Positions 3,162 through 29,572 of a stretch of 64,000 bases of DNA are shown here, one piece after another. Source of the stretch: Desulfosporosinus nitroreducens (GTDB lineage: Bacteria > Bacillota > Desulfitobacteriia > Desulfitobacteriales > Desulfitobacteriaceae); contig NZ_JAMHFY010000008.1 of NCBI RefSeq assembly GCF_023897015.1, forward strand, positions 1 through 64,000. The letters run 5' to 3'. Below the pieces are notes generated by a model. The model saw only the letters and a list, made by a program, of their open reading frames with translations. It was not told where the DNA came from and did not search any database. The translations under genes were made by a program, and so were the position numbers. Numbering within the stretch: position 1 is the first letter of the stretch; each line of letters opens with the position of its first letter.

Positions 3162-3794
3162 TTGTTGAATAACCTAGATACCCTAGTGGAGTCAGTAATC
3201 CAAGGAAGACATAGGGATGCAGTTGCTCTTGCTGAACAATTGCTTTCTTCTGGGATTGATGTATACACCATCGTAGAACATGGTTTATCACCCGCTTTAA
3301 AGGCGTTAGATGTAAAATGCACATCCGATGAGTTCAATTTATTGGAAATCATGTTAGCCGGGAGAGCCATGCTGGAAGTGATGAATAACGTTATTGCCAA
3401 ACACTTAGATCAGGATCAGCCTGTGAAACAACTGGACACGATTATCCTAGGATCCATCAAGGGGGATATCCATGAGTTAGGAAAACACGTGGTGCGGATC
3501 CTACTTAGTTGTGCCGGGTATAAAGTTATTGATTTAGGCCAAGACGTGGAGCCTAAGCGATTTGTAGAAGCGGCCGTTGAAGCAAAGGCAGATTATATTT
3601 TCATTTCAGGTCTGATTAGTGTTATCGTTCCACAGGTCAGAGAAGTTAGGGCATTTCTTCTGCAGCAAAATTTGACGATCCCGGTTGTAGCTGGAGGCGC
3701 AGCTCTCCAGCAAATGAAGGCAGAGGATTTAAATGTCGATTATGTGGCCAAGAATGCTTTTGATGGCCTGCACTATGTCCAACGGATGAGGTGA
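3162..3794 (+). CDS. Methyltransferase cognate corrinoid protein (MtaC/MtbC type)
   Basis: A 210-residue cytoplasmic cobalamin-binding protein. Residues 1-85 form the helical cap domain (B12-binding domain 2) and 90-210 the Rossmann B12 domain, with the DxHxxG motif GDIHELG giving Asp102, the lower axial ligand His104 and Gly107, then the SGLI and AGGAA (GG) cofactor-contact motifs. Such proteins carry a methyl group between a substrate-specific methyltransferase and MtaA/MtbA or tetrahydrofolate. The start is TTG 3162 after AAGGGGTG. Five bases separate it from the UroD-like gene, and the operon continues into a two-component system. No MtaB/MttB-type partner is present, so a sensing role is possible. 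Confidence 0.9.
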   Translation: MLNNLDTLVESVIQGRHRDAVALAEQLLSSGIDVYTIVEHGLSPALKALDVKCTSDEFNLLEIMLAGRAMLEVMNNVIAKHLDQDQPVKQLDTIILGSIKGDIHELGKHVVRILLSCAGYKVIDLGQDVEPKRFVEAAVEAKADYIFISGLISVIVPQVREVRAFLLQQNLTIPVVAGGAALQQMKAEDLNVDYVAKNAFDGLHYVQRMR

Positions 3795-3798
3795 GAGA

Positions 3799-4818
3799 AT
3801 GAGATCGTTAGCAAGGGTTTTAGGCACCTTGAATTTTACAGACGTTGACTGCGCTCCAGTTTTTCTCGAACATAGTGGGTTTGTCGCTAGATTGGCGGGG
3901 ATATCCCTTGAGAGATATCTTACAGAGGCCGATATCATGGTTGCTGTGAAATTAGAGGCAGTCAAAAAGTTTAGGACCGACATTATGAGCTTAGGCCTGG
4001 ATTCGTGTGTAGAAGCTGAAGCCTTGGGCTCCAAAGTGGTGTTTTCTAATTCCGCTTATCCATACATTTCGAGCTCGCTGATCACAGATTGGCATCAGCT
4101 TGATCGCCTAACTGTGCCGGATCCATGGTCATCTGGACGGATGCCACTGATACTGCAGGCTGCTAAGGTTATTGTAGAAAAGGATGCGGGAGAGCACTTT
4201 ATTGTTGGACAAGTCTTAGGACCCGTGACCATCGCCTCCCAAATTTATGGAATTGAGAAGCTTATTTACTTAATTGTCGATGATCCTGAGGGATTTATGG
4301 AGCTCTTAAAATTCACTTCTCAGGTTACCGAACGCTATTGTGAAGCCCTGGGTGAAACTGGTATACACGCTATTATGCTACATGACCCTTCGGCCTCACC
4401 AGATGTTTTATCAAAAGGAGTATTTACTAGTTTCATAGCACCTCAGCTTAAAGCAATGTTCGAGCGTATTAAGAAACGGCAAGAGACTTATCTGTGGCTC
4501 CAAATTATCGGCAATACCACTTCGGTATTGCATCATATGGCTGACTTTAATCTCGAAATGGTGACGATTGATACGGCAGTTAAACTTCCGGATGCCTTTC
4601 ACAGTCTTCAGAACAAAGTTGTCGTGGGGAATATGAATCCCATGTTGTTCCGAAATGCAACGTTTAATCAATTAGCCAGCACCTTAAGACAGATACTTGA
4701 GCAACGTCGAGAGTTTGGTTATGTCATGGGTACAGGCTGTGAAACCCCTCTAGATGCCAGTGAAGAAAAGATTACTTACTTTCTAGAGTTAATAGAGAGC
4801 ATAAAGTGCCACGGCTAG
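3799..4818 (+). CDS. MtaA/UroD-family methyltransferase homolog, zinc site degenerate
   Basis: A 339-residue TIM-barrel protein of the uroporphyrinogen decarboxylase/MtaA-MtbA group, full length for the family. Members that move methyl groups between corrinoid and coenzyme M or folate bind zinc through HxC...C. Here the HxCGN segment reads LQIIGNT: residue 235 is Gln instead of His and 237 is Ile instead of Cys, while the C-terminal Cys314 (GTGCETP) remains. Catalytic zinc binding is therefore doubtful. It is translationally close to the corrinoid gene and to the downstream kinase, which suggests it reads the state of the corrinoid rather than turning over substrate. Family call is firm; loss of activity is inference. 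Confidence 0.85.
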   Translation: MRSLARVLGTLNFTDVDCAPVFLEHSGFVARLAGISLERYLTEADIMVAVKLEAVKKFRTDIMSLGLDSCVEAEALGSKVVFSNSAYPYISSSLITDWHQLDRLTVPDPWSSGRMPLILQAAKVIVEKDAGEHFIVGQVLGPVTIASQIYGIEKLIYLIVDDPEGFMELLKFTSQVTERYCEALGETGIHAIMLHDPSASPDVLSKGVFTSFIAPQLKAMFERIKKRQETYLWLQIIGNTTSVLHHMADFNLEMVTIDTAVKLPDAFHSLQNKVVVGNMNPMLFRNATFNQLASTLRQILEQRREFGYVMGTGCETPLDASEEKITYFLELIESIKCHG

Positions 4819-4859
4819 TCCGTATGAAGCAAAGCATGGGTTTTAAAGGGAGGGGAAAA

Positions 4860-6167
4860 ATGTCAGGTCAAACTGTGAATACAGGGTCTGAACAATTATA
4901 TGAGCAGTTGCAGCGGGAGATGGCGGTACTCATCAAGATCAACAATCTAACGGGTTTTTTGCCAGTCAAGCTCGACAATCTACTGAGTGCAATAATCAAA
5001 GAAATTGATAATATATTTTTTCCCTATAAATGTGAACTTCATCTCATCACTGAGGGGCGTTTGGAAACTTGTTGCACATATATTAAAGATGATTGCTGTA
5101 AAGCATTAAATGATCAACTTCCTTTGACTTTAGAACAAGGAGAAAGACTTTGTTGTGAGGCCGAATTCTGTGCTAATTGCTATCAATTCCATGTTTGCGT
5201 ACCCCTTATTGCAGGAGTTGACAAGCTCGGTGTAGTTACTCTCAAAAGTAAGCAGAAAACAGAGTTTCATCGTGATTCTATGGAATTGCTATTAGCGGTT
5301 GTAAGTCAGATTGCGGCTACAATTCAAAGGGCTCGGCTCTTTTCACGTTTAGCCCAGGAAAAGGCAAATCTTGAAAAAGCCAATACCGAAATCAATCAGC
5401 TCAATCAGGAGTTGCAAAAATCGATTGAGCAATTGAATAAAGCTCAAGAACAGCTTGTTATATCTGAGCGCTTAGCGGCGGCTGGCCAATTGTCGGCCAA
5501 TTTGGCTCATGAAATCAACAACCCCATAGGGGTTATTCTTTCGAGGCTAGAATGGTTGTTATTAGAGGCTGAGGAGAATAGTTTGCCAGATCAAGTGATT
5601 GAGGATATGCAAATAATGGTGAAGCATACTGAGCGGATTGCCAGAACGACTAAGGGCTTGCTTTCATTCTCACGTCAAACGGTGGATTGCATGTCGCCCC
5701 TAGACCTAAATACCATGATTATCGAAACCACCGATTGGCTGAGAAGTCAATTCCTAAGTAAGAATATCCAGTTAGACTTAAAATTGGCGAGCAATGCGTG
5801 GGTCCTTGGGAATCCCGGGCAATTGGAGCAGGTCTTAGTGAACCTTCTTAATAACGCGAAAGATGCGATAGTTGAAGGTGGGGAAATTAGTATCTGTTCA
5901 AAGGTTGATCTAGATCAAAAAATGGTTCAAGTTGAGGTCAGCGATTCGGGGACAGGGATCTCTGACGAGATAAAGAATAGGATTTTTGACCCGTTTTTTA
6001 CGACCAAGGAAAAAGGAGTAGGAACGGGTCTTGGGCTTTCTATTAGTTATGGAATTCTTGAAAACCATGGTGGAAGTTTAAAGGTCGAAAGCGAACTAGG
6101 TAAGGGAAGCTGTTTCAGTCTATTGTTGCCGTTATTCATTGAGGCAAAGGCGGGTGATGCGTCATGA
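4860..6167 (+). CDS. GAF-type sensor histidine kinase, Cys-rich
   Basis: A 435-residue soluble kinase with no membrane segments. I chose ATG 4860 because GGGAGGGG precedes it; longer starts upstream lack a ribosome site. Order: N-terminal helix, GAF-like domain (about 30-160), coiled coil (160-205), HisKA with His217 in LAHEINNP, then HATPase_c with [16 protein letters not shown] and GTGLGLS. The GAF segment holds ten cysteines between residues 58 and 113 (including CC at 71-72, 79-80 and 98-99 and CANC at 104-107), which suggests metal, Fe-S or redox sensing. It overlaps the response regulator gene by 4 nt, so the two are a pair. Confidence 0.92.
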
Positions 6168-7558
6168 AGGAGGAACGCACAATCCTTGTAATCGATGACG
6201 AAAAGGATATGTTAGAGATTTGTTCTCGAATTATCAAACGCATGGGTTATAGGAGTGTTACTTTTAATGACAGTGTGGAAGCCCTGAATAAGATGCTGGA
6301 TATTACTCCAGACCTGATCATTACAGACCTGCAAATGCCCGGGGTTGATGGATTCCGAATTTTGGAGTGGATCAAAGAAAATCTACCCGAAACACTCGTG
6401 GTGGTGATCACAGGTTTTTCCTCCATTGATTCAGCGATCATTGCCATGAAAAATGGAGCCTTCGATTATTTGCCAAAACCGTTCAAGCTTGACCAGCTAC
6501 AGTTTACGATTACTAAAGCATTTCAACAGATCGAATTAAAGGCAGAAAACCAACTCTTGCGCAATCAGCTCCAGGAAGTGATTAATAGCGAGAATCTTAT
6601 TGGAGCCAATGGTGGGTTGCAAACTATTTTCAAGCAGATTGGTAAAATTGCCAAGACAAACGTAACTACATTAATCTTAGGCGAAAGCGGTACAGGTAAG
6701 GAGCTTATTGCCCATACTATTCATAAGAATAGTCATCGTTCGATCGGGCCATTCATTCCTATTGACTGTGCTTCCCTTCCAGAAAACTTGCTCGAAAGCG
6801 AGTTGTTCGGTTACGAAAGAGGAGCCTTTACAGGAGCTAATCGAACGAAAGAGGGGCTCTTCGAACTGGCAAGTGGCGGAACCTTATTTTTAGATGAGAT
6901 CGGGGAGTTAAGTCTCGCCTTACAGGCGAAACTTTTAAGGGCCTTAGAAGAGAAAGAATTTCGGCGGGTAGGCGGTCATCAACTGATCAAAGTTGATGTG
7001 CGAATTGTGGCAGCCACTAACCGAGACTTAGAACAAATGGTTGCTAGTAAGGAATTTAGAGAAGATCTTTACTATCGCTTGAATGTCATTAGCTTACAAC
7101 TTCCGCCCTTAAGGGAGCGGAAAGAAGATATTCCGTTATTTGTTTTGCACTTTTGTGCTAAGTTTGCACGTAAAACGGGAAAAGTAATCAAGGGTTGTGA
7201 ACCAAGGGTTATGGAGCTACTTACTCAGTACTCGTGGCCGGGTAATGTGCGTGAATTACGGAATATCATGGAAAGAGCGGTTACCCTTGCCGAAAATGAA
7301 GTTGTGGGGACTCAAGATTTGGTCCAGCAGGTGTTGGAAGTAAATAGAGAGCCTATGAAGGGTAATGAGATCTCCACGAACCTTCCCTATCGGGAAGCGA
7401 AAGAACTATGGATGAATCATCTTGAAGCTCATTATCTGCCAACGTTATTAGACCGCTTTGATGGAAATATTACTCGTGCTGCAGAATGGGCTGGGATCGA
7501 TCGGAAAACCATTCATCGCCTTCTAAAGAAACACCACTTGTCTAGGATTGCTGAATAG
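6164..7558 (+). CDS. NtrC-family sigma-54 response regulator
   Basis: A 464-residue regulator: receiver domain (1-120) with Asp11/Asp12, phospho-acceptor Asp55 in TDLQMPG and Lys105; AAA+ domain (about 145-380) with Walker A GESGTGKE, the sigma-54 contact loop GAFTGA and Walker B LFLDEIGE; C-terminal Fis-type HTH (AAEWAGIDRKTIHRLLKKH). The cognate kinase gene overlaps it by ATGA. It should activate sigma-54 promoters when phosphorylated. I found no convincing -24/-12 site just upstream of its own operon, so its targets may lie elsewhere. The 3' end overlaps the convergent lipoprotein gene by 17 nt. Confidence 0.95.
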   Translation: MKEERTILVIDDEKDMLEICSRIIKRMGYRSVTFNDSVEALNKMLDITPDLIITDLQMPGVDGFRILEWIKENLPETLVVVITGFSSIDSAIIAMKNGAFDYLPKPFKLDQLQFTITKAFQQIELKAENQLLRNQLQEVINSENLIGANGGLQTIFKQIGKIAKTNVTTLILGESGTGKELIAHTIHKNSHRSIGPFIPIDCASLPENLLESELFGYERGAFTGANRTKEGLFELASGGTLFLDEIGELSLALQAKLLRALEEKEFRRVGGHQLIKVDVRIVAATNRDLEQMVASKEFREDLYYRLNVISLQLPPLRERKEDIPLFVLHFCAKFARKTGKVIKGCEPRVMELLTQYSWPGNVRELRNIMERAVTLAENEVVGTQDLVQQVLEVNREPMKGNEISTNLPYREAKELWMNHLEAHYLPTLLDRFDGNITRAAEWAGIDRKTIHRLLKKHHLSRIAE

Positions 7559-8099
7559 GGATGACCAGCCTATGATCGTCACCGAGAGGCTGGTCTTTTT
7601 CATTCTGAGGTGCTTTGATAAGAATTGTAATCTCACTAATATCAGTGGGGCTTGATTTCTGGAGTGGAAACATTACGTAGCCCTGTAAGATTCGTTTCGG
7701 TGGGAAGACCCCTCCCAAAAGACCTCCTAAGTCTGCACTCTCAGGCATATCGGCTAAAAGTTGTTCCCCGGTATTCGTCGTCACAACAATTTGTTCCGGA
7801 TAGAAGCGGACGCTTTCAGACGAGATATTTCCGACTTCTAATCCAAGGGCAAGATGGCCTTGGAGGTCAGGTTGAGACTCTGTAGTATTTTTGATCATGG
7901 AAACACTATCGATTCTGATTTTGATTGAGCCAAGGTTGACGATGGTATCAAGTTGTTGGGTCTTACTATAGCTTGGAATGTTCGTGGGTGGTTCTTGACC
8001 TTTTTCAACCATTGAAGTGGCAGAGCAACTAGTCAGAGTTAGCGTTGCTGCAGTAATGATAGTCATCAGAGCTAAATTTACTATCCTAAAGCGTTTCAT
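7542..8099 (-). CDS. Predicted lipoprotein, DUF4352-like
   Basis: A 185-residue exported lipoprotein: signal peptide 1-24 with lipobox LTSC (Cys25), then a beta-rich domain including a 'VGNISSESVRFYPEQIVVTT' stretch typical of the Ig-like DUF4352/telomere-repeat-like extracellular domains of Firmicutes. It runs convergent to the response regulator and shares 17 nt with it. The function is unknown; a link with the corrinoid operon is not implied by orientation. Confidence 0.7.
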   Translation of the reverse strand: MKRFRIVNLALMTIITAATLTLTSCSATSMVEKGQEPPTNIPSYSKTQQLDTIVNLGSIKIRIDSVSMIKNTTESQPDLQGHLALGLEVGNISSESVRFYPEQIVVTTNTGEQLLADMPESADLGGLLGGVFPPKRILQGYVMFPLQKSSPTDISEITILIKAPQNEKDQPLGDDHRLVIPIQQS

Positions 8100-8252
8100 A
8101 ATAAGTGGCCTCCCCAGTATGTATTTAAATAGACAGCTTCCTTAGATCGGTGTTAAAAAGGATTATATGCAATTTATATACCATACTTAGTAAGGGCAGG
8201 TTGTCTAGTTTATAGTCTCAATAATCCTTCTTCTCAGCAAATTGTGACATAA

Positions 8253-8296
8253 AAGCCACAGGTGAAGGGACATTAACGTCTCTAAACCTGTGGTTT
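8253..8296. terminator. Bidirectional hairpin upstream of the nos region
   Basis: AAGCCACAGGT pairs with ACCTGTGGTTT (one G-T pair) across a 21-nt loop, followed by a T run on the + strand. No + strand gene precedes it closely, so it may be an attenuator in the leader of the 8425 operon rather than a simple terminator. The remainder of 8100-8424 shows no gene. Confidence 0.5.
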
Positions 8297-8424
8297 TTAC
8301 TGTTGCCACAGTTCTTTTGTTAATGAAACCTTGAATTAGGCGGAGTTGACGCATCCATGGAGCCTGGCATGGGATTTGCAAAAGCTATGATTGTACCTAG
8401 GCCATGAAGGATAGGAGTGATGAG

Positions 8425-9624
8425 TTGCTATTAAAACTAGTTTGGAGGAATTTAGTACGACGACCCTGGCAATCCTCCTTGACAATTTTTGTTGTGGCAG
8501 CTTGTAGTGCAGCGTTAGTTTCAAGTTTGCTGATGTTATGGAGTATCGAGAATGGTGCAAAAAGTGCGCTTAACCAATGGGGGGCAGATATTCTGGTATT
8601 ACCAGCTCAGGCAGAGTATAGCCCTGAAGAGGTGCTATTTACGGGTTCCCCTGCCAACATTTACATGAAGGCACAAGTTATTGAGGAGGTTTCAGAGATT
8701 GACGGTGTGGAGAAAGCGACTCCTCAATTTTTCAGTCAAACGCTCAATCAAAGTTGTTGTAGCCTGCCGGATGAATATCGATTAGTCGGATATGATCCTG
8801 CCAGTGATTTCTTAGTTAATGGCTTAGCCCAAGGGATTGGAAGAGAGTTAAATCAGGAGGAAGTGATTATCGGCAGCGAAATTCCTGCCTTCCTAGGGGA
8901 CCGGGTCGTCATTCTAGGGCAACCTTTTGATGTTGCTGGTTATCTAAAGCCAAAAGGAGGGAGTATTGATCGGACAATTTTTGTTCCTATTGCTACAGCC
9001 CGTCAAGTCGCCTTCCAAAGTCCTTATTTGCAGGAAATTTGGCATGGTGCCGGAAACCCTCAAGATTTGATATCCGCCGTTTTAATCAAAACGAGTGAGA
9101 GTGTATCACCTGAGATTATTGGGCAAACGATCTCGAATATTCCTGGCTTAAAGGCTGTGACGGCAGGGAAACTCATGCAAGACTTGCAGGAACAATTGGT
9201 GGCTTTTCGTTCAGTAATATGGGTTCTAGTACTTATCATAGGTGCCATTACGTTAGCTTCCCTTTGTACGAGGTACTCCTCTTTGATGCTTGAAAAACGG
9301 GAAGAAGTGGGATTGTTGCGGATCCTAGGGGCGAGGAGAAACCAAGTTTTCAAGATGATTTTGGCGGAGTCCTTCATTACGGTACTGACTGCTTCATTCT
9401 TAGGGTCACTATTTGGTTTAGGCTTGCTCATACATTACAAGTTAATGCTCAAGGAATATAGTTCATTTCCTTTTCTCATGCCCAATTTGTCACAAATAGT
9501 GATTGCCCTAAGTGGTCTCATCCTAGCAACACTCGTTATTAGTCTTTTAGCCGCGCTTTGGCCAGCAAGACGTTCGGCGTTCATTGATCCAGTGCTTGCC
9601 TTATCTGAAGGCCAGCTTCGTTAG
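8425..9624 (+). CDS. ABC transporter permease, FtsX/MacB type
   Basis: A 399-residue permease with one N-terminal transmembrane helix (about 12-35), a large extracellular MacB-PCD-like domain (35-260) containing a Cys pair (NQSCCSLP), and three C-terminal helices of the FtsX domain (about 265-395). TTG 8425 is favoured because TAGGAG lies 7 nt upstream; the ATG at 8404 has no ribosome site. It pairs with the ATPase 11 nt downstream. MacB-type systems move substrates from the outer membrane leaflet or cell surface rather than through a channel. Its place at the head of the nos cluster suggests a role in building or supplying NosZ or cytochromes; that is inference. Confidence 0.85.
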   Translation: MLLKLVWRNLVRRPWQSSLTIFVVAACSAALVSSLLMLWSIENGAKSALNQWGADILVLPAQAEYSPEEVLFTGSPANIYMKAQVIEEVSEIDGVEKATPQFFSQTLNQSCCSLPDEYRLVGYDPASDFLVNGLAQGIGRELNQEEVIIGSEIPAFLGDRVVILGQPFDVAGYLKPKGGSIDRTIFVPIATARQVAFQSPYLQEIWHGAGNPQDLISAVLIKTSESVSPEIIGQTISNIPGLKAVTAGKLMQDLQEQLVAFRSVIWVLVLIIGAITLASLCTRYSSLMLEKREEVGLLRILGARRNQVFKMILAESFITVLTASFLGSLFGLGLLIHYKLMLKEYSSFPFLMPNLSQIVIALSGLILATLVISLLAALWPARRSAFIDPVLALSEGQLR

Positions 9625-9635
9625 GAGGATATACT

Positions 9636-10343
9636 ATGCAACTCAAACTATCAAAGGTTAGTCATCAGTATGCCAATAAGTTCGGAGAGGTCATTATTCC
9701 TCTCCAAGACGTTGATTTAAGCATAGATCGGGGGGAAGTACTGACTATTTTAGGACCATCAGGTTGCGGTAAAAGCACGCTTTTATTCATTTTAGGGTGC
9801 CTGCTCAAACCAACTCAAGGTGAGGTAGTGATTGATAGTATACCTACTTATAGGTTAGTAGAAGACGAGCTAGCAGAGCTACGCTCACGCAAGATAGGAT
9901 TCATTTTACAACAGAGTGTTCTCCTCCCAACCCTTACGGTTCGGGAAAATGTACTCCTGCCATTATGGATCGGGCCTAAACCTTTTAATAAAAAAAGCGC
10001 AGAGCAGAAAGTGACATCACTCCTTGAAGAATCAGGATTACTGGAACGAGCAAAGTTTTTACCGCATCAGTTAAGCGGGGGGCAAAGACGACGGGTTGCT
10101 ATTGTGAGAGCATTAGTTCACGATCCAGAGCTAATTTTAGCAGATGAACCAACAGCGGAGCTTGATGATGTCAATCGCTCCCTAATTAGTACGTGGTTAT
10201 TAGAGTTAGCGGATAAAGGTAAATCAGTCGTTATTGCAACCCATGACCCTTTTCTTACGGGTGTGGCGAGTCGTGTTTACACTTTAAACAAAGGACTGCT
10301 ACTTCTAAAAGCGAAGCCGGGGAAAAGCCATGAGGCTCTATAG
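9636..10343 (+). CDS. ABC transporter ATP-binding protein, LolD/MacB type
   Basis: A 235-residue cytoplasmic ATPase with Walker A GPSGCGKST, Q-loop (FILQQSVLLP), signature LSGGQRRR, Walker B LILADEPTAELD and H-loop (IATHDP). Size and signature fit the MacB/LolD class that partners FtsX-type permeases, and AGGAGG precedes ATG 9636 immediately after the permease stop. It energises the permease at 8425. Confidence 0.92.
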   Translation: MQLKLSKVSHQYANKFGEVIIPLQDVDLSIDRGEVLTILGPSGCGKSTLLFILGCLLKPTQGEVVIDSIPTYRLVEDELAELRSRKIGFILQQSVLLPTLTVRENVLLPLWIGPKPFNKKSAEQKVTSLLEESGLLERAKFLPHQLSGGQRRRVAIVRALVHDPELILADEPTAELDDVNRSLISTWLLELADKGKSVVIATHDPFLTGVASRVYTLNKGLLLLKAKPGKSHEAL

Positions 10344-10379
10344 GTGCTTGCCTAATAAATGTGTGAAAGAGGGGAAACC

Positions 10380-10808
10380 ATGATCACTCAAACTAAAGGG
10401 AATAAAGTAGCTGGTATTTTGGGTTCTATTATCGGTATGTTCATTATTTTTACGCCCTTTCATTTAGCCCCCGTGTGTCAGAAATTAATTGAATTGAAAT
10501 CTGGCAATATGACTCATATGCGCTGTCATTATACAGGGCAGGCTGAGATTTATTTTGGCATATTGATAGTGATTGTTTCGCTGATGGTTCTGTTTAGCCA
10601 TGGTGTCGCACGTCGCTATCTTGGCTTTCTATTGGCAGTCCTTGGTGTGATGGTAATTTTGATGCCTACTGATTGGGGGATTGGGGTTTGTATGTCGCCT
10701 ATGGAATGCCATACAACAGCTAAATATTTGTATGGATTCGGAGGAGTGCTAACCTTAGTGGGTTTGGCCTTAGGATTGATGAAAGGACCCTTTTCGGATA
10801 AACCTTGA
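10380..10808 (+). CDS. DUF4418 membrane protein
   Basis: A 142-residue protein with four predicted membrane helices (about 12-32, 60-80, 84-104 and 115-135). ATG 10380 follows GAGGGGAAA. Conserved-looking Cys, His and Met residues sit in the loops (PVCQK, MRCHY, CMSPMECHTT), which face the outside if the N-terminus is in. That pattern could form disulfides or bind a metal such as copper, fitting the neighbouring NosZ pathway, but no function is established for the family. It follows the ABC pair. Confidence 0.75.
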   Translation: MITQTKGNKVAGILGSIIGMFIIFTPFHLAPVCQKLIELKSGNMTHMRCHYTGQAEIYFGILIVIVSLMVLFSHGVARRYLGFLLAVLGVMVILMPTDWGIGVCMSPMECHTTAKYLYGFGGVLTLVGLALGLMKGPFSDKP

Positions 10809-10879
10809 ACCAATAACGTGAAAAGAGATTTGAATAGAGACAAATAAGTCCCACCGCTATTTTAAGGAGGTGATGAAAT

Positions 10880-11185
10880 TTGGCAAAAGGATTTTCCACT
10901 AAGATAGCTACAGGAATAACTCTAATGATGGTAGGCACGGCAATAGGGCTGTCGGCGATGTCGTCTTATGCGCAACCAATGCCTAAAGAAAATCATGGAG
11001 GGAGAGAATACTTAACTTTTCAATCAGTCTGTACCACTTGTCATGAGGCTACTACCGTGCAAAATTCCAGCGGTACCGAGTCGTGGTCTGAGGTTATCAC
11101 CCAAATGCGTGGGTTTGGGGCCTTTGTTACGGAGGATCAAACTAAGGAAATAGAGGATTATCTGCAAAAAACATATCCAAGATAA
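10880..11185 (+). CDS. Exported monoheme c-type cytochrome
   Basis: A 101-residue protein with a signal peptide (1-32, ending SSYAQ) and a single heme site CTTCH (about residues 51-55). TTG 10880 is set by AAGGAGGTGAT. It lacks a lipobox, so it may stay anchored by an uncleaved signal or act outside the membrane. It sits just before the Rieske/cytochrome b genes and presumably carries electrons toward NosZ. Confidence 0.85.
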   Translation: MAKGFSTKIATGITLMMVGTAIGLSAMSSYAQPMPKENHGGREYLTFQSVCTTCHEATTVQNSSGTESWSEVITQMRGFGAFVTEDQTKEIEDYLQKTYPR

Positions 11186-11214
11186 AATTAACCGGATGAA
11201 AGGAAGTCGTGCAT

Positions 11215-11451
11215 ATGAGTCTTGATCAGGAAGATCAGTCTTCTTATGGGTTAGTGTTACTTGGCTTAGACGCGTGGGCAGCTCTTATGTTCGCCATGAT
11301 GCTTGTTAAAAGCTATATCGCTGGGAATTCCCGTTGGGTTGCCATATTAATTGGCTTGATTTTTATTAGTACCGCTATTTCCATTTATATATGGCGATTT
11401 TTTGTTTTAGAGAAGGGGGAGGGGATGAAAAGCCATGGAGAATTCCAGTAA
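11215..11451 (+). CDS. Small two-helix membrane protein of the nos cluster
   Basis: A 78-residue protein with two hydrophobic helices (about 14-36 and 42-64) and no cofactor motif. ATG 11215 is chosen over GTG 11209 for spacing from AAAGG. Its end overlaps the Rieske gene start by 17 nt, which implies translational coupling. It could be an assembly or small accessory subunit of the cytochrome b-Rieske complex; I do not recognise the family. Confidence 0.7.
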   Translation: MSLDQEDQSSYGLVLLGLDAWAALMFAMMLVKSYIAGNSRWVAILIGLIFISTAISIYIWRFFVLEKGEGMKSHGEFQ

Positions 11452-11884
11452 TAATCGAAAACTATCCCGACGCCAATTTATAACCATAACCGCGAGCATA
11501 CCAGCGTGCTTAGCCGTTCTAACCCCTATGACTTTGCTGGGTGGAACCCTTTACCCCCCGAAATCATTAATGCCTGCTCCTCCCAAAATGGCGGTAATTA
11601 AAGAAGTAGATCTTCAGGACGAGCCAGTGGAGTTTGTCTATGATGGGGCTCCAGCCATGCTATTTAAGCGAGAAGATGAAATGATCGCTTTCTCTCGAGT
11701 CTGCACACATCTTGGCTGTATTGTGCTTTGGAATGCTGAAGGTCAGCAGTTCGAGTGTCCGTGCCATGGCGGAATTTTTAATGCCAACGGAGATGTGGTA
11801 GAAGGACCGCCTCCCAAACCTCTGCTCAAATTGGCAACTTGGTTGGAAGAAGGGGTTGTCATGGCTCAACTGAAGGAGGTTTAA
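11435..11884 (+). CDS. Rieske [2Fe-2S] protein of a bc/b6f-type complex
   Basis: A 149-residue Rieske subunit. The N-terminus has a twin-arginine motif (SRRQFI) before a hydrophobic anchor; the fold contains both cluster-binding motifs, CTHLGC (about 90-95) and CPCHGG (about 109-114), whose two Cys and two His ligate the cluster. It is followed by cytochrome b6-like and subunit IV-like genes, so the three form a quinol:cytochrome c oxidoreductase. Here its electron acceptor would be the cytochromes that feed NosZ. Confidence 0.95.
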   Translation: MENSSNNRKLSRRQFITITASIPACLAVLTPMTLLGGTLYPPKSLMPAPPKMAVIKEVDLQDEPVEFVYDGAPAMLFKREDEMIAFSRVCTHLGCIVLWNAEGQQFECPCHGGIFNANGDVVEGPPPKPLLKLATWLEEGVVMAQLKEV

Positions 11885-11887
11885 ATT

Positions 11888-12544
11888 TTGGCTATCGAAC
11901 CTAAGGGAATTGCAAAAAAAAATGAACAAAGCTTATCAGAAATGTTTAAGGAACTTGGGAGCCATCCCGTACCGAAACATGCCCGTAGTTACATGTATTG
12001 CTTCGGAGGAATTACATTTTTACTCTTTTTAATTCAGGTCATTACGGGGATTTTGCTCGCTATTTACTACAAGCCGACACCCGAGCTGGCCTATGAAAGT
12101 GTGATGTTTATCGAGCAAGACGTATGGATGGGAGCAGCAATTCGTTCAATCCATAATGTTGCCGCGAACCTGATGGTTATCGCTGTGCTGATGCATATGT
12201 TTCGAGTCATCTATACGGGTTCATATAAACCCCCGCGTCAATTAAACTGGATTATCGGAGCGTGCTTGTTGATTATTGTCCTCGCTTTTTGCTTTACGGG
12301 TTATCTTTTACCCTGGGATCAGTTGGGGTATTGGGCTGCTGTCATAGGTACAAAAATAATGGGCTCGCTCCCTTGGCTCGGTGAACAGTTACTGCTCTTG
12401 AGCCAGGCAGGCAGCAAAATTACCGGGTACACCTTAACTAGGTTTTATGCTCTTCATATTGTGATCTTACCAGTGGTTGCAATTGTTTCGATGGTTATTC
12501 ATTTTCTGATGATCCGTAAGCAAGGAATTTCTGGTGGGCTATAG
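11888..12544 (+). CDS. Cytochrome b6-like subunit
   Basis: A 218-residue, four-helix heme protein (N-terminal half of cytochrome b), starting at TTG 11888 after GGAGGTTT. Heme-ligating histidines are visible in RSIHNVAANL and LMHMF (helix B) and in LHIVIL and VIHFL (helix D). A Cys in MYCFGGITF occupies the place of the b6f Cys that binds the extra heme c-i. With the separate subunit IV gene this is the split b6f-like arrangement found in Firmicutes. It oxidises menaquinol in the membrane. Confidence 0.95.
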   Translation: MAIEPKGIAKKNEQSLSEMFKELGSHPVPKHARSYMYCFGGITFLLFLIQVITGILLAIYYKPTPELAYESVMFIEQDVWMGAAIRSIHNVAANLMVIAVLMHMFRVIYTGSYKPPRQLNWIIGACLLIIVLAFCFTGYLLPWDQLGYWAAVIGTKIMGSLPWLGEQLLLLSQAGSKITGYTLTRFYALHIVILPVVAIVSMVIHFLMIRKQGISGGL

Positions 12545-12558
12545 GAGGGGAAGTTAAA

Positions 12559-12960
12559 TTGGAGCGTGATCAAAAACTAAGTTCTTTGGAGTCTGATGAG
12601 ATACCTTTTTTCCCTGGTCATCTATTAACGGAAGTCGTGATGGCCTTTGCGGTCCTTGGATTAGTGTTTATCTTAGCTGGAGTATGGCCCAAGGAGTTAG
12701 GCCCCCCGGCAAATACGATTATGACTCCGTCACGGATTGTTCCGGAATGGTATTTCCTTTGGCTGTTCGGGCTTCTGAAAATCGTACCTGAGCTATTAGG
12801 ATTATTTCTTTCGGGGTTGTTGATCATGGGAGTCCTACTTCTTCCGTGGCTTGATCGCAGTAATAATAATACCTTAAAGGGAAGGCGTAAGATTCTCATG
12901 CTCATAATATTGACCGTGTGTTTCATGATCGTACTGTCGGTGATCGGTGTAAAAGAATAA
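12559..12960 (+). CDS. Cytochrome b subunit IV-like protein
   Basis: A 133-residue membrane protein with three helices, equivalent to the C-terminal part of cytochrome b (PetD-like). It carries the quinol-site motif PEWY (in VPEWYFLW, about residues 58-65). TTG 12559 follows AGGAGGGG. It completes the Qo site together with the preceding b6-like subunit and the Rieske protein. Confidence 0.92.
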   Translation: MERDQKLSSLESDEIPFFPGHLLTEVVMAFAVLGLVFILAGVWPKELGPPANTIMTPSRIVPEWYFLWLFGLLKIVPELLGLFLSGLLIMGVLLLPWLDRSNNNTLKGRRKILMLIILTVCFMIVLSVIGVKE

Positions 12961-12989
12961 GTTGTTAGGATGTACTAGGAGGTGCAAGC

Positions 12990-13448
12990 GTGTTCAATCT
13001 TTTCAAGAAGGGTGTAGGACCAAACTTTGTTTTATGGTTGGGAATCGGTTTTCTAACTATGGTTAGTTATAATGTTTTGGCCACACCAAGCAATCCTCCA
13101 ACCGTTGATAATACCGTCCAAACCGTCTACAATACAGGACTTCAGCCTCAGGCCCAAGCTCCGACGGACGCCATTGATCCTAAAACTCTCGAAGGAGATA
13201 TCTTTAAGCAAAAAGGGTGTATTCAGTGCCATTCTGTTTCCTTCTACAATATCTTAGGTGGAGCGACAGGGCCAGATCTTTCCGTTGCTTATTCGGATGC
13301 TCCGAAACGATTTGGCAAAAGCCTTGAGGAGTTTTTGGAAAAACCTGAAGGGACTATGGGCGATTTGCTTCCCCAGCGCACTACCGCTGAGGATAGGAAA
13401 CAAATCCTTGATTTGTTGAGCAAGGCGGCAGAAGTAAAGGCTAAATAA
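12990..13448 (+). CDS. Exported monoheme c-type cytochrome
   Basis: A 152-residue cytochrome with an N-terminal hydrophobic anchor or signal (about 9-30), a Pro/Thr/Gln-rich linker (30-65), and a heme domain with CIQCH (about 76-80) and a distal Met candidate in EGTMGDLL. GTG 12990 follows AGGAGGTG. Its position directly before nosZ and after the b6f-like genes makes it the likely immediate electron donor to the CuA site of NosZ. Confidence 0.88.
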   Translation: MFNLFKKGVGPNFVLWLGIGFLTMVSYNVLATPSNPPTVDNTVQTVYNTGLQPQAQAPTDAIDPKTLEGDIFKQKGCIQCHSVSFYNILGGATGPDLSVAYSDAPKRFGKSLEEFLEKPEGTMGDLLPQRTTAEDRKQILDLLSKAAEVKAK

Positions 13449-13494: not shown

Positions 13495-15378
13495 ATGCAT
13501 AAAATAAAGCTAAAAACTCTATTCGTTGCTGTTGCAGGGCTTTTTGTCGGCTTATTATTGGCTTATTCCATATCGTCTCAAATAAGCCCAACTACTACGG
13601 GAGGATTGAAGGCTTCTAAAGAGGGCGTGTCAGAGGATCTCATCGACGCTGCCCTGAAAACCTATGTCCCACCCGGTCAATTAGATGAATATTATCTCTT
13701 CGCATCGGGTGGACACTCTGGTCAACTGTTTGTGTATGGGGTGCCATCCATGAGACGTATTCGTTCAATTCCAGTCTTTAATAAGGAGTCCGCCGTTGGT
13801 TATGGCTGGACGACAGAAAGTAAAGAAATGCTCGGGGATTTTGCTTGGGGGGATGCACATCATCCGGCCCTCAGCGAAACTAAAGGTGATTATGATGGAC
13901 GGTGGCTTTTCATGAATGATAATGCCAACAGTCGGGTTGCCCGCGTTAATTTAGATTCTTTCACAACTCAACAGATCCTTGGGCCAGTACCTAACGTATA
14001 TGGTCCTCATGGTTCGGTCTTTCTAACGCCAAATTCAGAGTATTTCATGATGGCTTCACGTTTTGCTGGTCCGATTCCCTATGGTACCTACTCGGAGCTT
14101 GATAACTTCAAAGAGGACTATAAAGGCGTTATGGCTGCCATAGCCATTGATCCCAAAGATGGCGAGATGAGTGTCGGGTGGGAAGTGTTACTTCCTCCTT
14201 GGTCTTACGACCTTTCAGATGCTGGTAAGGGTGTCAGTGACGGCTGGTGTTTCCTGACAACTTATAATACAGAAGAAGCGTACCACCTATTAGAAGTGGA
14301 ATCCTCCCAAAGAGAACGGGACTATATCATGGCAATTAACTGGAAGATGCTCGAACAAGCGGCTAAGGACGGAAAGGTAAAAGATATTGGTGGAGCAAAG
14401 GTCATTGATCCCATGGATGTTCCAGGTTCAGTCTACCTCGTTCCTTGCGCAAAAAGTCCACATGGGGTGGATGTTACCCCTGACGGCAAATATTTTATTG
14501 GAAATGGTAAACTTGCTCCTACTGTCACTGTTTTTAGTTTTGAAAACTTCATGGAGTGTGTTAACACTAAGGATTTTCAGGGGGAAGAAAGGGGCTTCCC
14601 AATTGTGAATTATGAAAAGACGCGGGTCGCTGAAGTAGAAGTTGGCTTAGGACCTTTGCATACTCAATTTGATGACAAAGGCAATGCTTACACGAGTTTG
14701 TTCGTTGAAAGCGCCGTCGCCAAATGGAGTTTAACTGACTTTAAAGTCACTGATAAAACACAAGTACACTATTGCCCAGGACACCTAGCTTCGGCCGAAG
14801 GGGATACCGTGAATCCTGATGGGAAATACCTAGTCTCCTTGAATAAGTTAGCCAAAGATAAATACCTCTCGGTTGGACCTTCCCATCCAGAAAGTATGCA
14901 GTTGATTGATCTCACTAGTTCTAAGATGAAAGTTCTATACGATAGTCCAACAGATCCAGAACCACATTTTGCACAAATGATTAAAGCGGATAAAATCAAA
15001 ACCTTTGAAGTCTATCCTAAGGATGAAGCAAGAGAAGGCGCTGTCTATGCGAAGGAAGATGCCAAGGTTGTCCGGGATGGCAATAATGTGACGGTGTATA
15101 TGATGGCCTTCCGGAGCCGCTACTACCCTGATGCGGTTGAAATCAATGAAGGTGATCATGTAACTTGGTATATCACGAATACGGATTTTGACGAGGATAT
15201 TACCCATGGCTTTGGGATCATGTTCTACGATATCAACTGTGAGTCACAACCAGGACAGACTCAAAAACTTGAATTCGTGGCAGATAAAGCGGGGGTATAT
15301 CCGTACTATTGTACGAATTTCTGTTCAGCCTTACATCAAGAAATGCAAGGATATCTGTTAATTAAACCAAAATCGTAA
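13495..15378 (+). CDS. nosZ: Nitrous oxide reductase, clade II (Sec type)
   Basis: A 627-residue copper enzyme that reduces N2O to N2 outside the membrane. It has a Sec-type signal or anchor (1-30) with no twin-arginine motif, which marks clade II. The seven-bladed propeller holds the CuZ histidines (for example DAHHP at 120-124, YGPHGS, KSPHGVD, LGPLHTQ), and the cupredoxin domain has the CuA signature C606-x3-C610-x3-H614-x2-M617. All key ligands I can see are intact, and the length is right for clade II. It lies in one block with electron-transfer genes upstream and nosB-like, nosD, nosL, nosY and nosF downstream. Confidence 0.98.
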   Translation: MHKIKLKTLFVAVAGLFVGLLLAYSISSQISPTTTGGLKASKEGVSEDLIDAALKTYVPPGQLDEYYLFASGGHSGQLFVYGVPSMRRIRSIPVFNKESAVGYGWTTESKEMLGDFAWGDAHHPALSETKGDYDGRWLFMNDNANSRVARVNLDSFTTQQILGPVPNVYGPHGSVFLTPNSEYFMMASRFAGPIPYGTYSELDNFKEDYKGVMAAIAIDPKDGEMSVGWEVLLPPWSYDLSDAGKGVSDGWCFLTTYNTEEAYHLLEVESSQRERDYIMAINWKMLEQAAKDGKVKDIGGAKVIDPMDVPGSVYLVPCAKSPHGVDVTPDGKYFIGNGKLAPTVTVFSFENFMECVNTKDFQGEERGFPIVNYEKTRVAEVEVGLGPLHTQFDDKGNAYTSLFVESAVAKWSLTDFKVTDKTQVHYCPGHLASAEGDTVNPDGKYLVSLNKLAKDKYLSVGPSHPESMQLIDLTSSKMKVLYDSPTDPEPHFAQMIKADKIKTFEVYPKDEAREGAVYAKEDAKVVRDGNNVTVYMMAFRSRYYPDAVEINEGDHVTWYITNTDFDEDITHGFGIMFYDINCESQPGQTQKLEFVADKAGVYPYYCTNFCSALHQEMQGYLLIKPKS

Positions 15379-15500: not shown

Positions 15501-16112
15501 ATGAAATTTTTGCAAGGCAAGCTGAGTCTGTCAGGAAGAATTTTGCTGCTAGTTGCAGGGCTTTGTCTGATTGCGAGTACTTACTTTCCTTTGTGGTATA
15601 TGAGTTTGGATGCGCCGCAGTATCCTGAAGGGTTATCGATGATTGTTTTCATGGATCATATCGGGGGTCGCATCGATATCATTAATAACTTGAACCATTA
15701 TATTGGCATGAAGGAAATTGCAGAATCGGATTTCCCGGAAATGCAATATATGACCTACATAGCATTTGGCTTAGCAGGGTTGGCGTTTATCGCAGCGTTG
15801 GTAAGAAGAGTATGGTTTGGGCTAGGCACCTTGGTACTGCTCATAATTGGTGGGGGGTTGGGAATGTATGATCTTTGGTACTGGTTACACCGCTTTGGAA
15901 CAGAATTAGATTCTAAAGCGCCCATTATAATCCCTCCGTTCGTACCTCCAATGATTGGGAGTAATGACGTAGCGAATTTCGTAACCCATACAGGCTTTGG
16001 TATCGGGGGTTACCTCTTAGGCCTAAGTATTTGTTGCATGATTATTGCGCTTTGGAGGTTTAGGACATGGGAAAACAAAGAAAACGATTCCAAGCCAACT
16101 ATCCAGGCTTGA
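15501..16112 (+). CDS. NosB-like membrane protein of clade II nos clusters
   Basis: A 203-residue protein with about five hydrophobic segments (15-35, 93-110, 116-136, 150-175 and 177-197) and no cofactor motif. A membrane protein gene at exactly this place, between nosZ and nosD, is the hallmark of clade II clusters, where it is called nosB; its role is unknown. GGAGGGG precedes ATG 15501. Its last 46 nt overlap the nosD start. Confidence 0.7.
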   Translation: MKFLQGKLSLSGRILLLVAGLCLIASTYFPLWYMSLDAPQYPEGLSMIVFMDHIGGRIDIINNLNHYIGMKEIAESDFPEMQYMTYIAFGLAGLAFIAALVRRVWFGLGTLVLLIIGGGLGMYDLWYWLHRFGTELDSKAPIIIPPFVPPMIGSNDVANFVTHTGFGIGGYLLGLSICCMIIALWRFRTWENKENDSKPTIQA

Positions 16113-17536
16113 TCCTTGGGGTTCTTTTTTGGGCATTAGTTTGGACTAAGCCAATTCAAGCTCAGACTATCGAAGTGAGCCCAAATGGAGCGATTACCTC
16201 GATAAACGAAGCCATAGCCAAGGCTGAACCAGGTGATGAAATCACGGTTCAGCCTGGTGTTTATAAGGGCCAAGTACTGATCGATAAGAGTGTAAAGCTG
16301 ATTGGTTTAAACTATCCTAAAATCGAGGGAGGAAATATTGGGGATGCCATAACTATCAAAGCGGATAGTGTCACTGTTCAGGGTTTTGAGGTGAGGGGCA
16401 GTGGAAGGAGATTAGAGCACTCGGATGCTGGAATCAAGATTTATTCTAAAAAGAATATTATCAAAGATAACCATATCCTAGATAATTTGTTTGGACTATA
16501 CCTCAATAAAGCATCCCAAAACATTCTGGAAGGGAATCTTATTCAAGGGCTGCCCGTTCAGAAAAAGCTTGAAAAATCCCAAGCTGATGATAATCAATAC
16601 GCTGGATTGCATCCTGCCTTTGAAGGGGATGGCGGAGACGGAATTCATTTGTTTGCAGCCTCTGAGAATATGGTTATCAATAATACGATTAAGGATACGC
16701 GCGACGGGATCTACTTCAATTATGCCAGCGATAATCAACTGATTGGGAACCGGATTTCTAATGTCCGCTACGGAATTCACTATATGTACTCTGATAGTAA
16801 TACCTTTCAAGAGAATACTTTATTAAACAATGTCGCGGGTGCGGCCTTGATGTTTTCAAAAGATATAACCTTTACAGAAAATATTTTTGCTCATAGCCGA
16901 GGGCACCGATCATATGGACTCCTATTTGCAACCTGTGATGATAGCTTAGCCGAAGGAAATATTTTCATTGATAATACGCGTGGAGCCTTTTTTGATGTTT
17001 CCCTGCGCAATGAGTTTCGTAACAATCTAGTCGCGTCAAATGATGTCGGCATCGATCTTATCTCGAGTTCTACGGATAATCTTTTCGTGGGTAATAATTT
17101 GATTGACAACTTGCAACAAGTGGCGATGATTGCCGGTCAAGTTGGTGATGGAAACGCGTTTGCTAAAGATGGTCAAGGAAATTATTGGAATGATTATCGG
17201 GGCTTTGATTTAGACCGCAACGGGATTGGAGATATTCCTTACCTAAGCGGGGATCCCTTTACGTATTTGATGAAAAAGGCGCCTGCCGTGCGACTATTTC
17301 TCAATAGTCCAGCAGCCACCGCTCTAGAATTTTCAGAGAGAATGTTTCCGATTATCAATGTTCCGAAGGTAAAGGATTCGTACCCATATGTCGAACCTAT
17401 TAACTTGCAGCTTCCGAATCTAGCTGAGTTTTCGGTGCCAGCAAGTAGCAATAAAGTATTAGGTGGTTATTCGATGGCTATGCTGCTCGTTGCTGGGTTG
17501 ATATTTTATCGGGTTAGAAAACAAAGGGGGGTCTGA
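16067..17536 (+). CDS. nosD: Copper-site assembly protein NosD
   Basis: A 489-residue exported protein with an N-terminal signal (about 12-33), a long right-handed beta-helix made of PbH1 repeats (carbohydrate-binding/CASH fold, about 45-400) and a C-terminal membrane helix (about 465-483). NosD works with NosF and NosY to mature the CuZ centre of NosZ. Its start overlaps the preceding gene by 46 nt and its stop is 1 nt from nosL, so translation is probably coupled. Confidence 0.95.
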   Translation: MGKQRKRFQANYPGLILGVLFWALVWTKPIQAQTIEVSPNGAITSINEAIAKAEPGDEITVQPGVYKGQVLIDKSVKLIGLNYPKIEGGNIGDAITIKADSVTVQGFEVRGSGRRLEHSDAGIKIYSKKNIIKDNHILDNLFGLYLNKASQNILEGNLIQGLPVQKKLEKSQADDNQYAGLHPAFEGDGGDGIHLFAASENMVINNTIKDTRDGIYFNYASDNQLIGNRISNVRYGIHYMYSDSNTFQENTLLNNVAGAALMFSKDITFTENIFAHSRGHRSYGLLFATCDDSLAEGNIFIDNTRGAFFDVSLRNEFRNNLVASNDVGIDLISSSTDNLFVGNNLIDNLQQVAMIAGQVGDGNAFAKDGQGNYWNDYRGFDLDRNGIGDIPYLSGDPFTYLMKKAPAVRLFLNSPAATALEFSERMFPIINVPKVKDSYPYVEPINLQLPNLAEFSVPASSNKVLGGYSMAMLLVAGLIFYRVRKQRGV

Positions 17537-17537
17537 T

Positions 17538-18008
17538 ATGAGTCGAAAAATAGCAGCGATCATCTTTGTCTTAGCCATGAGTCTACTATTGATGGGATGT
17601 TCTAAGCAGGTGGATACATCTCCTCAGCTGATTGACTCGAGCCTTGATATTTGCCCGACTTGTAATATGAGCATTATCGACCTGCACTATGCTGCTGAAA
17701 TTGTTACTCAAGAAGGTCAGGCGGAGAAATTTGATGACATTGGTTGTTTGGTGCTATACCTCAAAAAGCACAGTCAAGAGCCAGCCTTAAAAGAGAGCGT
17801 GGTCTATGTCAAGGATTATAATACCATGGACTGGATTATTGCTTCCGAGGCCACGTATATTAAAGCGCATATTAATACTCCCATGAATTTTGGAATCGTG
17901 GGGTTTGGATCTCAAGAAGCAGCTCAATTGTTTGGGGGCGAGTTAGAAGACGCCACATTAATGAATTGGCAAGAAGTCTTATCAGCAAAGCAGACGGTGA
18001 GCTTTTAA
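17538..18008 (+). CDS. nosL: Copper chaperone lipoprotein NosL
   Basis: A 156-residue lipoprotein: signal with lipobox LMGC (Cys21) and the Cu(I)-binding motif CPTCNM (Cys39, Cys42, Met44), followed by the NosL/MerB-like fold with FDDIGCLVLY and VKDYNTMDWI. It delivers copper to apo-NosZ. It lies between nosD and nosY in the same operon. Confidence 0.93.
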   Translation: MSRKIAAIIFVLAMSLLLMGCSKQVDTSPQLIDSSLDICPTCNMSIIDLHYAAEIVTQEGQAEKFDDIGCLVLYLKKHSQEPALKESVVYVKDYNTMDWIIASEATYIKAHINTPMNFGIVGFGSQEAAQLFGGELEDATLMNWQEVLSAKQTVSF

Positions 18009-18066
18009 GAAATCTGCAGATAGGGACTAGTTTATATTGGCAACAGGCAAAAAGGGGGTGAAATGT

Positions 18067-18906
18067 ATGATGAGCGGAGCTAACGTAATGGTCATTGCTG
18101 AAAAAGAACTTCTGGAGTCCATGCGAAGTCGCTGGTTGGTTACCTTTACGATTATTTTCGGCTTATTAGCCTTGCTTATCTCGTTCTTTGGTCTATCTGG
18201 GATGGGGGTTGGGGGCTATCAAGGGTTTAATCGCGTTACAGCAAGCCTCTTGAATCTAGTGCTATATCTTCTGCCCTTGATCGCTTTAGTGATCGGCTCT
18301 TCGACAATCGCAGGCGAGAAAGAAGTGGGCTCACTTCACGTTCTCTTAACTCAGCCAGTTAGCAAAAGCGAAGTGATTATTGGTAAGTTCCTGGGACTAG
18401 CCTTGGCTTTAACGGCTTCCATCTTAGCAGGGTTCGGAAGTGCTGGGGTAGTTATTGCCTGGAAGACAGGGACCATAAATATTGTCGACTATTTGGTATT
18501 TGTGATTTTGTCGATTGTCTTAACGCTTGTTTTCTTGAGTATGTCCTTGCTGATATCGGTAGTTACTACTAGGCGTTCTCAAGCAGTAGCCTTAGCCATC
18601 TTTGTATGGTTTTTTACCATTTTAGTTTATGATTTTTTGGCCATTGGAATTGCCTCTTTGCAACAAGTTACGGTAGTCGTTCCCCTATTGCTAACCCTTC
18701 TTCTCCTGAACCCAGCCGATATGGTCAGAGTCTTGGTTATTTTGCAATTGGGTGGAGAAGAGACATTTGGTCCGACCCTGGCAGCTCTTACGCGAATGAT
18801 GGGGAGTGGTTCAGGTGAAGTATTACTGGGTGTGGTTCTTTTCCTGTGGCTCTTTGGACCTTTGGGTTTATCTGTTTGGATATTTAGCCGAAAACAAGAT
18901 TATTAG
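18067..18906 (+). CDS. nosY: ABC transporter permease NosY
   Basis: A 279-residue integral membrane protein with six helices of the ABC-2 class. ATG 18067 is preferred over TTG 18037 because AAAAGGGGGTGAA precedes it. The N-terminal amphipathic part (EKELLESMRSRWL) and the segment VIGSSTIAGEKEVGSLHVLL are typical of NosY. It forms a complex with NosF and NosD needed for CuZ assembly. Confidence 0.93.
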   Translation: MMSGANVMVIAEKELLESMRSRWLVTFTIIFGLLALLISFFGLSGMGVGGYQGFNRVTASLLNLVLYLLPLIALVIGSSTIAGEKEVGSLHVLLTQPVSKSEVIIGKFLGLALALTASILAGFGSAGVVIAWKTGTINIVDYLVFVILSIVLTLVFLSMSLLISVVTTRRSQAVALAIFVWFFTILVYDFLAIGIASLQQVTVVVPLLLTLLLLNPADMVRVLVILQLGGEETFGPTLAALTRMMGSGSGEVLLGVVLFLWLFGPLGLSVWIFSRKQDY

Positions 18907-18917
18907 GAGAGAATGCT

Positions 18918-29365: not shown

Positions 29366-29556
29366 TTGAACGTCAATTTTGACCTTTTTAATCTTCTCAT
29401 CTCTCTTTTTAGGACTGTTCAATTAGACGATATCAAATAGAGACTGCTAACCATGAGGCTTGAATTATGGTCCAGCAAAAGAATATGACCCCACACAGTA
29501 CAAGAACTTACTAACTCTGATGAGCGAACAAGGAGTGTTGACACACATAATTATCA

Positions 29557-29572
29557 TGGCACAAAAATTGCA
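29557..29572 (+). promoter_or_regulatory. Sigma-54 promoter of the acyl-CoA oxidation operon
   Basis: TGGCACAAAAATTGCA matches the -24/-12 consensus TGGCAC-N5-TTGCW exactly. It lies 112 nt before the acyl-CoA dehydrogenase start. The PAS/sigma-54 activator at 34808, downstream of the operon, is the natural regulator. Confidence 0.88.

Follow-up and report, generated by a model that had tools for sequence, protein, structure and literature searches.

A regulatory use of the corrinoid cofactor is known from CarH, a DNA-binding adenosylcobalamin photoreceptor, and from its relatives. The module described here, one copy of which lies in a 64-kb stretch of Desulfosporosinus DNA that was analyzed as a whole (hereafter the window), has this use in common with CarH but differs from it in possessing a methyltransferase corrinoid-protein fold, a separate kinase, and an activator. 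Several other described systems resemble its individual components. The MtaA/MtbA methylcobamide:CoM methyltransferases (TIGR01463; PDB entries 4AY7 and 4AY8) share with one window protein the UroD fold, the size, a corrinoid protein as neighbor, and the third zinc-binding cysteine, whereas the window protein lacks the HxC pair, falls below the family cut-off, and is surrounded by signal transducers rather than methylotrophy genes. Corrinoid proteins of the MtaC/MtbC type have a counterpart at 3162–3794, with B12-binding domains and the base-off DxHxxG motif. The activators RamA, RACo, and AcsV contain the same Fer2, Raco_middle, and RACo_C_ter domains as the activator of the module (RACE), although the latter has a zinc-less MtaA-like protein as its neighbor or fusion partner and is accompanied by a kinase or cyclase. 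The sigma-54 systems NtrBC and AtoSC are matched in their H-box kinase, receiver, GAFTGA-bearing AAA+ domain, Fis-type helix-turn-helix (HTH), -24/-12 promoter, and upstream dyad, but the input of the module is a corrinoid/MtaA-like pair from the same operon. Lastly, RdhUVWX of Desulfitobacterium also comprises corrinoid and UroD-family proteins beside a reductive dehalogenase cluster, but it includes a MeTr-like protein and no reported kinase, and its authors proposed a function in corrinoid biosynthesis and assembly (PMC9888536). The phrase corrinoid-based sensor was not found in the literature that we searched.

Most biological ligands do not react with N2O. The Co(I) corrinoid is one of a small number of sites for which a reaction is known, and a corrinoid switch on nosZ would explain a specific response. 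N2O is documented to react with Co(I) corrinoids and to disturb Co(I)-dependent enzymes (PMC10960958). Whether an N2O-sensing mechanism exists was still counted among the points to be established in work published in 2024 on an N2O reducer of clade II (PMC11539149). The present work describes a two-component system whose input is of a new kind, namely the corrinoid/MtaA-like pair; together, these two proteins appear to be the first candidate sensor of the greenhouse gas N2O in bacteria.

Zinc-ligand loss in an MtaA-like clade

The open reading frame at 3799–4818 (+ strand) encodes a protein of 339 aa that was characterized using Pfam, profile alignment, and AlphaFold2. It matched the Pfam family URO-D (PF01208) with 196 bits, and its scores against TIGR01463 (MtaA/CmuA; 137.6 bits, curated cut-off 235.4) and against the MtaA family profile (114.9 bits, cut-off 400) were both below threshold. 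When a profile of its closest relatives was used, the best solved relative was MtaA of Methanosarcina mazei (4AY7). The earlier note had claimed that this protein lacks two of the three zinc ligands of MtaA-type methyltransferases and keeps the third, and the profile alignment bears out both parts: LHICGN of 4AY7 aligns on LQIIGN, placing Gln235 and Ile237 where the histidine and first cysteine would stand, and the second 4AY7 cysteine aligns on Cys314. Zinc ligands situated elsewhere in the clade were not visible, as the invariant columns of 60 members include one cysteine (C314) and no histidine. The AlphaFold2 model, built with 60 sequences, had a pLDDT of 96.3, and its top PDB match was MtaA (4ay8; TM-score 0.89), indicating a UroD-type fold.

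Among relatives drawn from genome collections, no readable member of the module had kept the HxC pair, whereas each retained the cysteine of the GCE(I/L/T)P motif; outside the module, the same searches showed HxC to be present in nearly all members of the family. The commonest HxC-less forms among module members were WLHIAGP and WLNIAGP, and those of the closest relatives were WLQITGN and WLMITGN; many clade members retain the histidine and have lost the first cysteine alone, and the window protein has neither. A maximum-likelihood tree separated 13 zinc-type paralogues from 63 zinc-less proteins, which formed a single clade with support of 100/99, and one change suffices to account for the distribution of the two types. 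This clade of approximately 63 relatives extends over many phyla. All 63 zinc-less proteins share Y87, C314, and E315 without exception, and 60 of them have W233; neither Y87 nor W233 belongs to the residues commonly found in the zinc-type paralogues.

Zinc-ligand loss is thus a well-supported character as far as alignments can establish one, and on the same footing the pocket is conserved, although its conserved state is not that of a zinc-dependent thiol methyltransferase. The earlier note had put forward loss of coenzyme-M or folate methyl transfer; that transfer to thiols is lost can reasonably be inferred from the absent ligands, and the lack of activity and of zinc is itself inferred, without an assay. 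Residues E72, E74, D258, C314, and E315 could be putative ligands for another metal. Decay of the gene into a pseudogene was also considered and was ruled out by the conserved pocket, with its clade-specific invariants, and by the retained operon order.

Module composition, nos linkage, and promoters

In the window operon the gene order is corrinoid protein, zinc-less MtaA-like protein, GAF histidine kinase, and sigma-54 response regulator. The corrinoid-binding protein (3162–3794, + strand) contains the Pfam domains B12-binding and B12-binding_2 (PF02310/PF02607) and retains the base-off motif as GDIHELG; its nearest solved relative is 1y80, and its TIGR02370 score of 111 bits is below the curated cut-off of 215.3. 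DxHxxG was kept in all 85 module corrinoid proteins read, including that of Moorella stamsii (DDLHDLG). The kinase (4806–6167, + strand) has a GAF-HisKA-HATPase architecture with a Cys-rich GAF domain and the H-box AHEINN. Its open reading frame starts within the end of the MtaA-like frame, and the true start is possibly slightly downstream. Several cysteines of the GAF domain were conserved in an alignment of 13 kinases, and an Fe-S or thiol relay formed by them is possible. The regulator (6164–7558, + strand) is of the NtrC/AtoC type, with a receiver, a sigma-54 AAA+ domain (GAFTGA), and a Fis-type HTH. By Pfam and by motifs in the translations, the H-box, receiver Asp, GAFTGA, and Fis HTH are all present in this two-component pair.

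Across 80 non-redundant module loci, the corrinoid gene adjoins the MtaA-like gene in 78, and a gene for RACE, a corrinoid reductive activator composed of 2Fe-2S and ASKHA parts, lies nearby in 60. RACE is missing from the window operon; seven RACE genes, and a single sigma-54 gene, are found in the window's genome. The MtaA-like protein and RACE are fused into one polypeptide in L084 (10001–12829), L125 (9944–12877), L073, and L096, with fusions of this kind occurring in Nitrospirota, Nitrospinota, and Planctomycetota. In a deltaproteobacterial module (L053), an extra 222-aa protein, possibly DUF1638-like, is encoded between the MtaA-like gene and RACE (11013–11681). A histidine kinase or diguanylate cyclase gene was found downstream on the same strand in 59 of the 61 loci with at least 4 kb of downstream sequence, the only loci included in this count. 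The switch to a regulatory role suggested in the earlier note is strongly supported by this linkage to a kinase with its sigma-54 regulator or to a diguanylate cyclase, and further by the sigma-54 promoters and dyads that precede the linked operons.

The window also has a small lipoprotein gene (7542–8099, - strand), for which no family match was obtained in domain and profile searches. It is divergent from the presumed target operon, which begins with genes for an FtsX/MacB-like permease, an ABC ATPase, and a DUF4418 protein (8404–10808, + strand) and continues with those for a c-type cytochrome, a Rieske protein, cytochrome b, and cytochrome c (10880–13448, + strand; assigned from open reading frames and synteny in relatives). 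At the end of this run, approximately 6 kb downstream of the regulator, is nosZ (13495–15378, + strand), which encodes a clade II (Sec) nitrous-oxide reductase scoring 904 bits against TIGR04246 (cut-off 625). Accessory nos genes follow (a membrane protein, nosD, nosL, nosY, and nosF; 15501–19844, + strand), as identified from sequence, synteny with the annotated nos order, and relatives.

Besides the window, nosZ adjoins the module in L040, L042, L043, L044, L047, L048, L050/L107 (Acididesulfobacillus acetoxydans), and in L170 and L171, which are from other families of the phylum. One further genome (G036) has the module approximately 30 kb from nosZ, with a recombinase-bearing stretch in between. 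In G027 (locus L177), the kinase and regulator of the module adjoin a clade III lactonase-type L-NosZ (869 bits, cut-off 700), the sole L-NosZ above cut-off among 83 genomes of the class, and the clade II NosZ proteins of L042 and L107 are only ~46% identical to that of the window. The MtaA-like sensors of the window, of G027 (L041), and of L042 are each other's closest relatives in the tree, yet they serve three NosZ types, which points to N2O reduction, rather than one inherited operon, as the common factor. When A. acetoxydans was grown on nitrate, nosZ RNA rose 127-fold and NosZ protein 423-fold (PMC10949509), and the induced nos operon is the one downstream of the module.

Among the 83 genomes of the class, 12 had NosZ, 13 had the module, and 11 had both (Fisher p 5.7e-11; p 2.8e-4 when counted by genus), the module being called from a strong match of more than 400 bits, with the next match at 226. 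A phylum sample of 398 genomes gave seven with NosZ, six with the module, and five with both (p 1.5e-9). Two genomes of the class, G012 and G056, have the module without NosZ; both modules belong to the wider RACE clade, and the output of that in G056 is a diguanylate cyclase. The only class genome with NosZ and no module (G032) is represented by an assembly that is 79% complete. That the whole module family tracks nosZ was ruled out: outside Bacillota most copies of the module are not beside nos genes, and any NosZ match was obtained for only 14 of 50 module genomes, so that the wider family may respond to a different signal. Four of these matches are full-length L-NosZ-like proteins below the cut-off in Nitrospirota and Nitrospinota, whose genes, wherever their position could be checked, do not adjoin the module; in G111 alone do the module and a NosZ-like gene seem to share a contig, approximately 33 kb apart.

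The top-scoring sigma-54 site of the window, a -24/-12 promoter at 8364–8380 (+ strand; CTGGCATGGGATTTGCA; 17.7 bits), is 24 bp ahead of the FtsX gene with which the nos operon starts. Each of ten simulated windows contained at most one sigma-54 site of at least 17.5 bits. All 13 loci scanned had such a site ahead of the linked operon, namely the window and L040, L042, L043, L044, L047, L048, L107, L094, L170, L171, L176, and L177. At 8267–8282, 97 bp ahead of the promoter, a candidate upstream activating site was found (GGGACATTAACGTCTC; consensus GGGACA-N4-TGTCCC), for which there are no binding data; the space separating the regulator from the nos operon holds an imperfect palindrome of 50 bp (8250–8299; perfect in L040) with this site at its center. 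Dyads with 0–2 mismatches were present ~70–200 bp upstream in the window, L040, L042, L043, L044, L047, L048, L094, L170, L171, and L176. No clear dyad was found in L107, which had 3-mismatch sites only, or in L177, which had none. Matches to the pattern with three or fewer mismatches are not rare across the whole window, so that the case for a function rests on the recurrence of the dyad's position across loci and not on the rarity of the pattern. Taken on sequence grounds alone, the conservation of the module, its signaling output, its co-occurrence with NosZ, the promoter, and the dyad are well supported.

Other sites of these kinds were observed. The lipoprotein gene has a divergent, weaker sigma-54-like site at 8168–8184 (- strand), whose counterparts in the relatives L043, L044, L047, and L176 are stronger. 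A second GGGACA-type dyad precedes the cytochrome c gene in three genomes (window, 10837–10852; L040, 7924; L170, 9067–9103). The window copy was rejected as part of a promoter, as it has no adjacent sigma-54 site; of the three genomes, only L170 has one. A strong sigma-54 site at 29556–29572 (17.0 bits) precedes an acyl-CoA dehydrogenase operon, and close to the end of that operon is the gene of a PAS sigma-54 activator (34808–36265); this is probably another sigma-54 regulon.

Proposed sensing mechanism and rival readings

We propose that the genes at 3162–7558 form a single signaling device that turns on the N2O-reductase operon and has a Co(I)-corrinoid N2O sensor as its input, a reading that we consider reasonably probable. 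Its parts are not equally secure. Regulation of nos by the corrinoid/MtaA-like/kinase/regulator module seems to us very probable, in the absence of bench data; that N2O is the direct signal, read via cobalt, is inferred from genomic context and from the known chemistry of N2O with Co(I), and we regard it as evenly balanced. Under this proposal the corrinoid protein would be the detector and would be kept in the super-reduced Co(I) state, itself inferred, by RACE, supplied from within the module in many relatives and in trans in the window genome. The analyte would meet the Co(I) corrinoid over the cobalt, inside the pocket of the MtaA-like protein, which would have kept the corrinoid-docking fold (physical docking is likewise inferred) and lost the zinc site that activates the thiol methyl acceptor; with no zinc-bound thiol, the reaction would have no metabolic outlet and would therefore serve as a signal. 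N2O would oxidize Co(I) to Co(II) or Co(III), and the MtaA-like/corrinoid pair would pass this change to the GAF histidine kinase, which would in turn phosphorylate the NtrC-type regulator. The regulator would then bind the GGGACA-N4-TGTCCC dyad at 8267 and open the sigma-54 promoter at 8364, resulting in transcription of the FtsX-ABC-cytochrome-nosZ genes, although the direction of the switch is an inference.

The main rival is nitric oxide as the signal. NO binds the Co(II) corrinoid, and a module controlling nos might sense NO or nitrite by this route or by an Fe-S or thiol site in the Cys-rich GAF domain, to which the conserved cysteines of the kinases would lend themselves. Regulation by NO is common among denitrification genes (PMC11539149), and the induction in A. 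acetoxydans was measured on nitrate, with NO accumulating (PMC10949509), so that NO or nitrite could have been the inducer. We consider this unlikely, as a Co(I)-restoring RACE and an MtaA-like partner suit Co(I) chemistry better than NO binding and the module tracks three NosZ types, albeit without a comparison with NO-reductase genes; moreover, Desulfosporosinus strain PR is described as growing with N2O as its sole acceptor in the available part of a report whose comparison of nos clusters, to the same extent, does not mention this regulator (PMC11096178; the module of PR was not compared). The descent of all three proteins from methyl-transfer enzymes, together with the block that N2O imposes on B12-dependent methyl transfer (PMC10960958), would suit a sensor of methyl groups or corrinoid supply that reads methyl-Co(III) or cofactor occupancy and induces nos when N2O blocks one-carbon metabolism. 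Such a sensor is improbable in our judgment: no MtaB- or MttB-type substrate methyltransferase was seen as a fixed component of the module, the site at which zinc serves demethylation has been lost, and the close tracking of NosZ is left without a reason. Strong purifying selection on the pocket implies that some ligand or chemistry remains there, as would be expected if the protein were a working methyltransferase, with a new type of substrate, that is encoded near a regulator by chance, but the coupling to a kinase or cyclase in nearly all informative loci, and the lack of catabolic genes as constant neighbors, leave this reading with very little credit.

Organohalides, like N2O, react with Co(I). 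A general Co(I) sensor of electrophiles or redox state (N2O, alkyl and aryl halides), each branch of which is wired to a matching reductase or to c-di-GMP, is compatible with N2O sensing in the Bacillota branch, and we place it a little short of an even chance. It draws on the module of M. stamsii (L094; 9346–17059), which lies ahead of RdhA-RdhB-RdhC-like genes with a sigma-54 site of 19.9 bits, and on the RACE-containing modules with diguanylate cyclases in many phyla, archaea included; on the other hand, the dehalogenase linkage was seen only once, and no cognate reductase has been identified for most of the 41-member RACE clade. The broader idea of a sensor that uses Co(I) to detect electrophiles, N2O being one of them, is therefore attractive but rests on one dehalogenase case. 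We suggest only tentatively that the enzyme trio of corrinoid protein, zinc-less MtaA, and reductive activator has been turned into a widespread Co(I)-supernucleophile probe for electrophilic or oxidizing small molecules and that its analyte in Bacillota is N2O.

Wider family

If Co(I)-based N2O sensing were proven, the module would represent a new class of sensor, the first dedicated biological N2O sensor and the first Co(I)-based signaling device. A corrinoid switch on nosZ would offer a genetic handle on microbial N2O sinks and a biosensor part, and it would define a sensory family ranging from Bacillota to archaea, for which other analytes could be sought.

Several members of this family differ from the window in output or context. 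The M. stamsii module is diverged and is possibly an organohalide-responsive version. GGDEF diguanylate cyclases are the outputs of corrinoid/zinc-less MtaA/RACE modules in many phyla (L057, L058, L061, L062, L068, L071, L078, L088, L100, and others), and copies of the module are present on contigs binned as archaea (L081, L070, L079, and L124; Methanoregulaceae, Methanomicrobiales, Lokiarchaeota, and Methanothrix). In another Bacillota genome (G489; L172, 8761–13200), the module is accompanied by sigma-54 sites that precede a DUF1646 transporter gene and an antiporter/NADH-dehydrogenase-like cluster, not nos.
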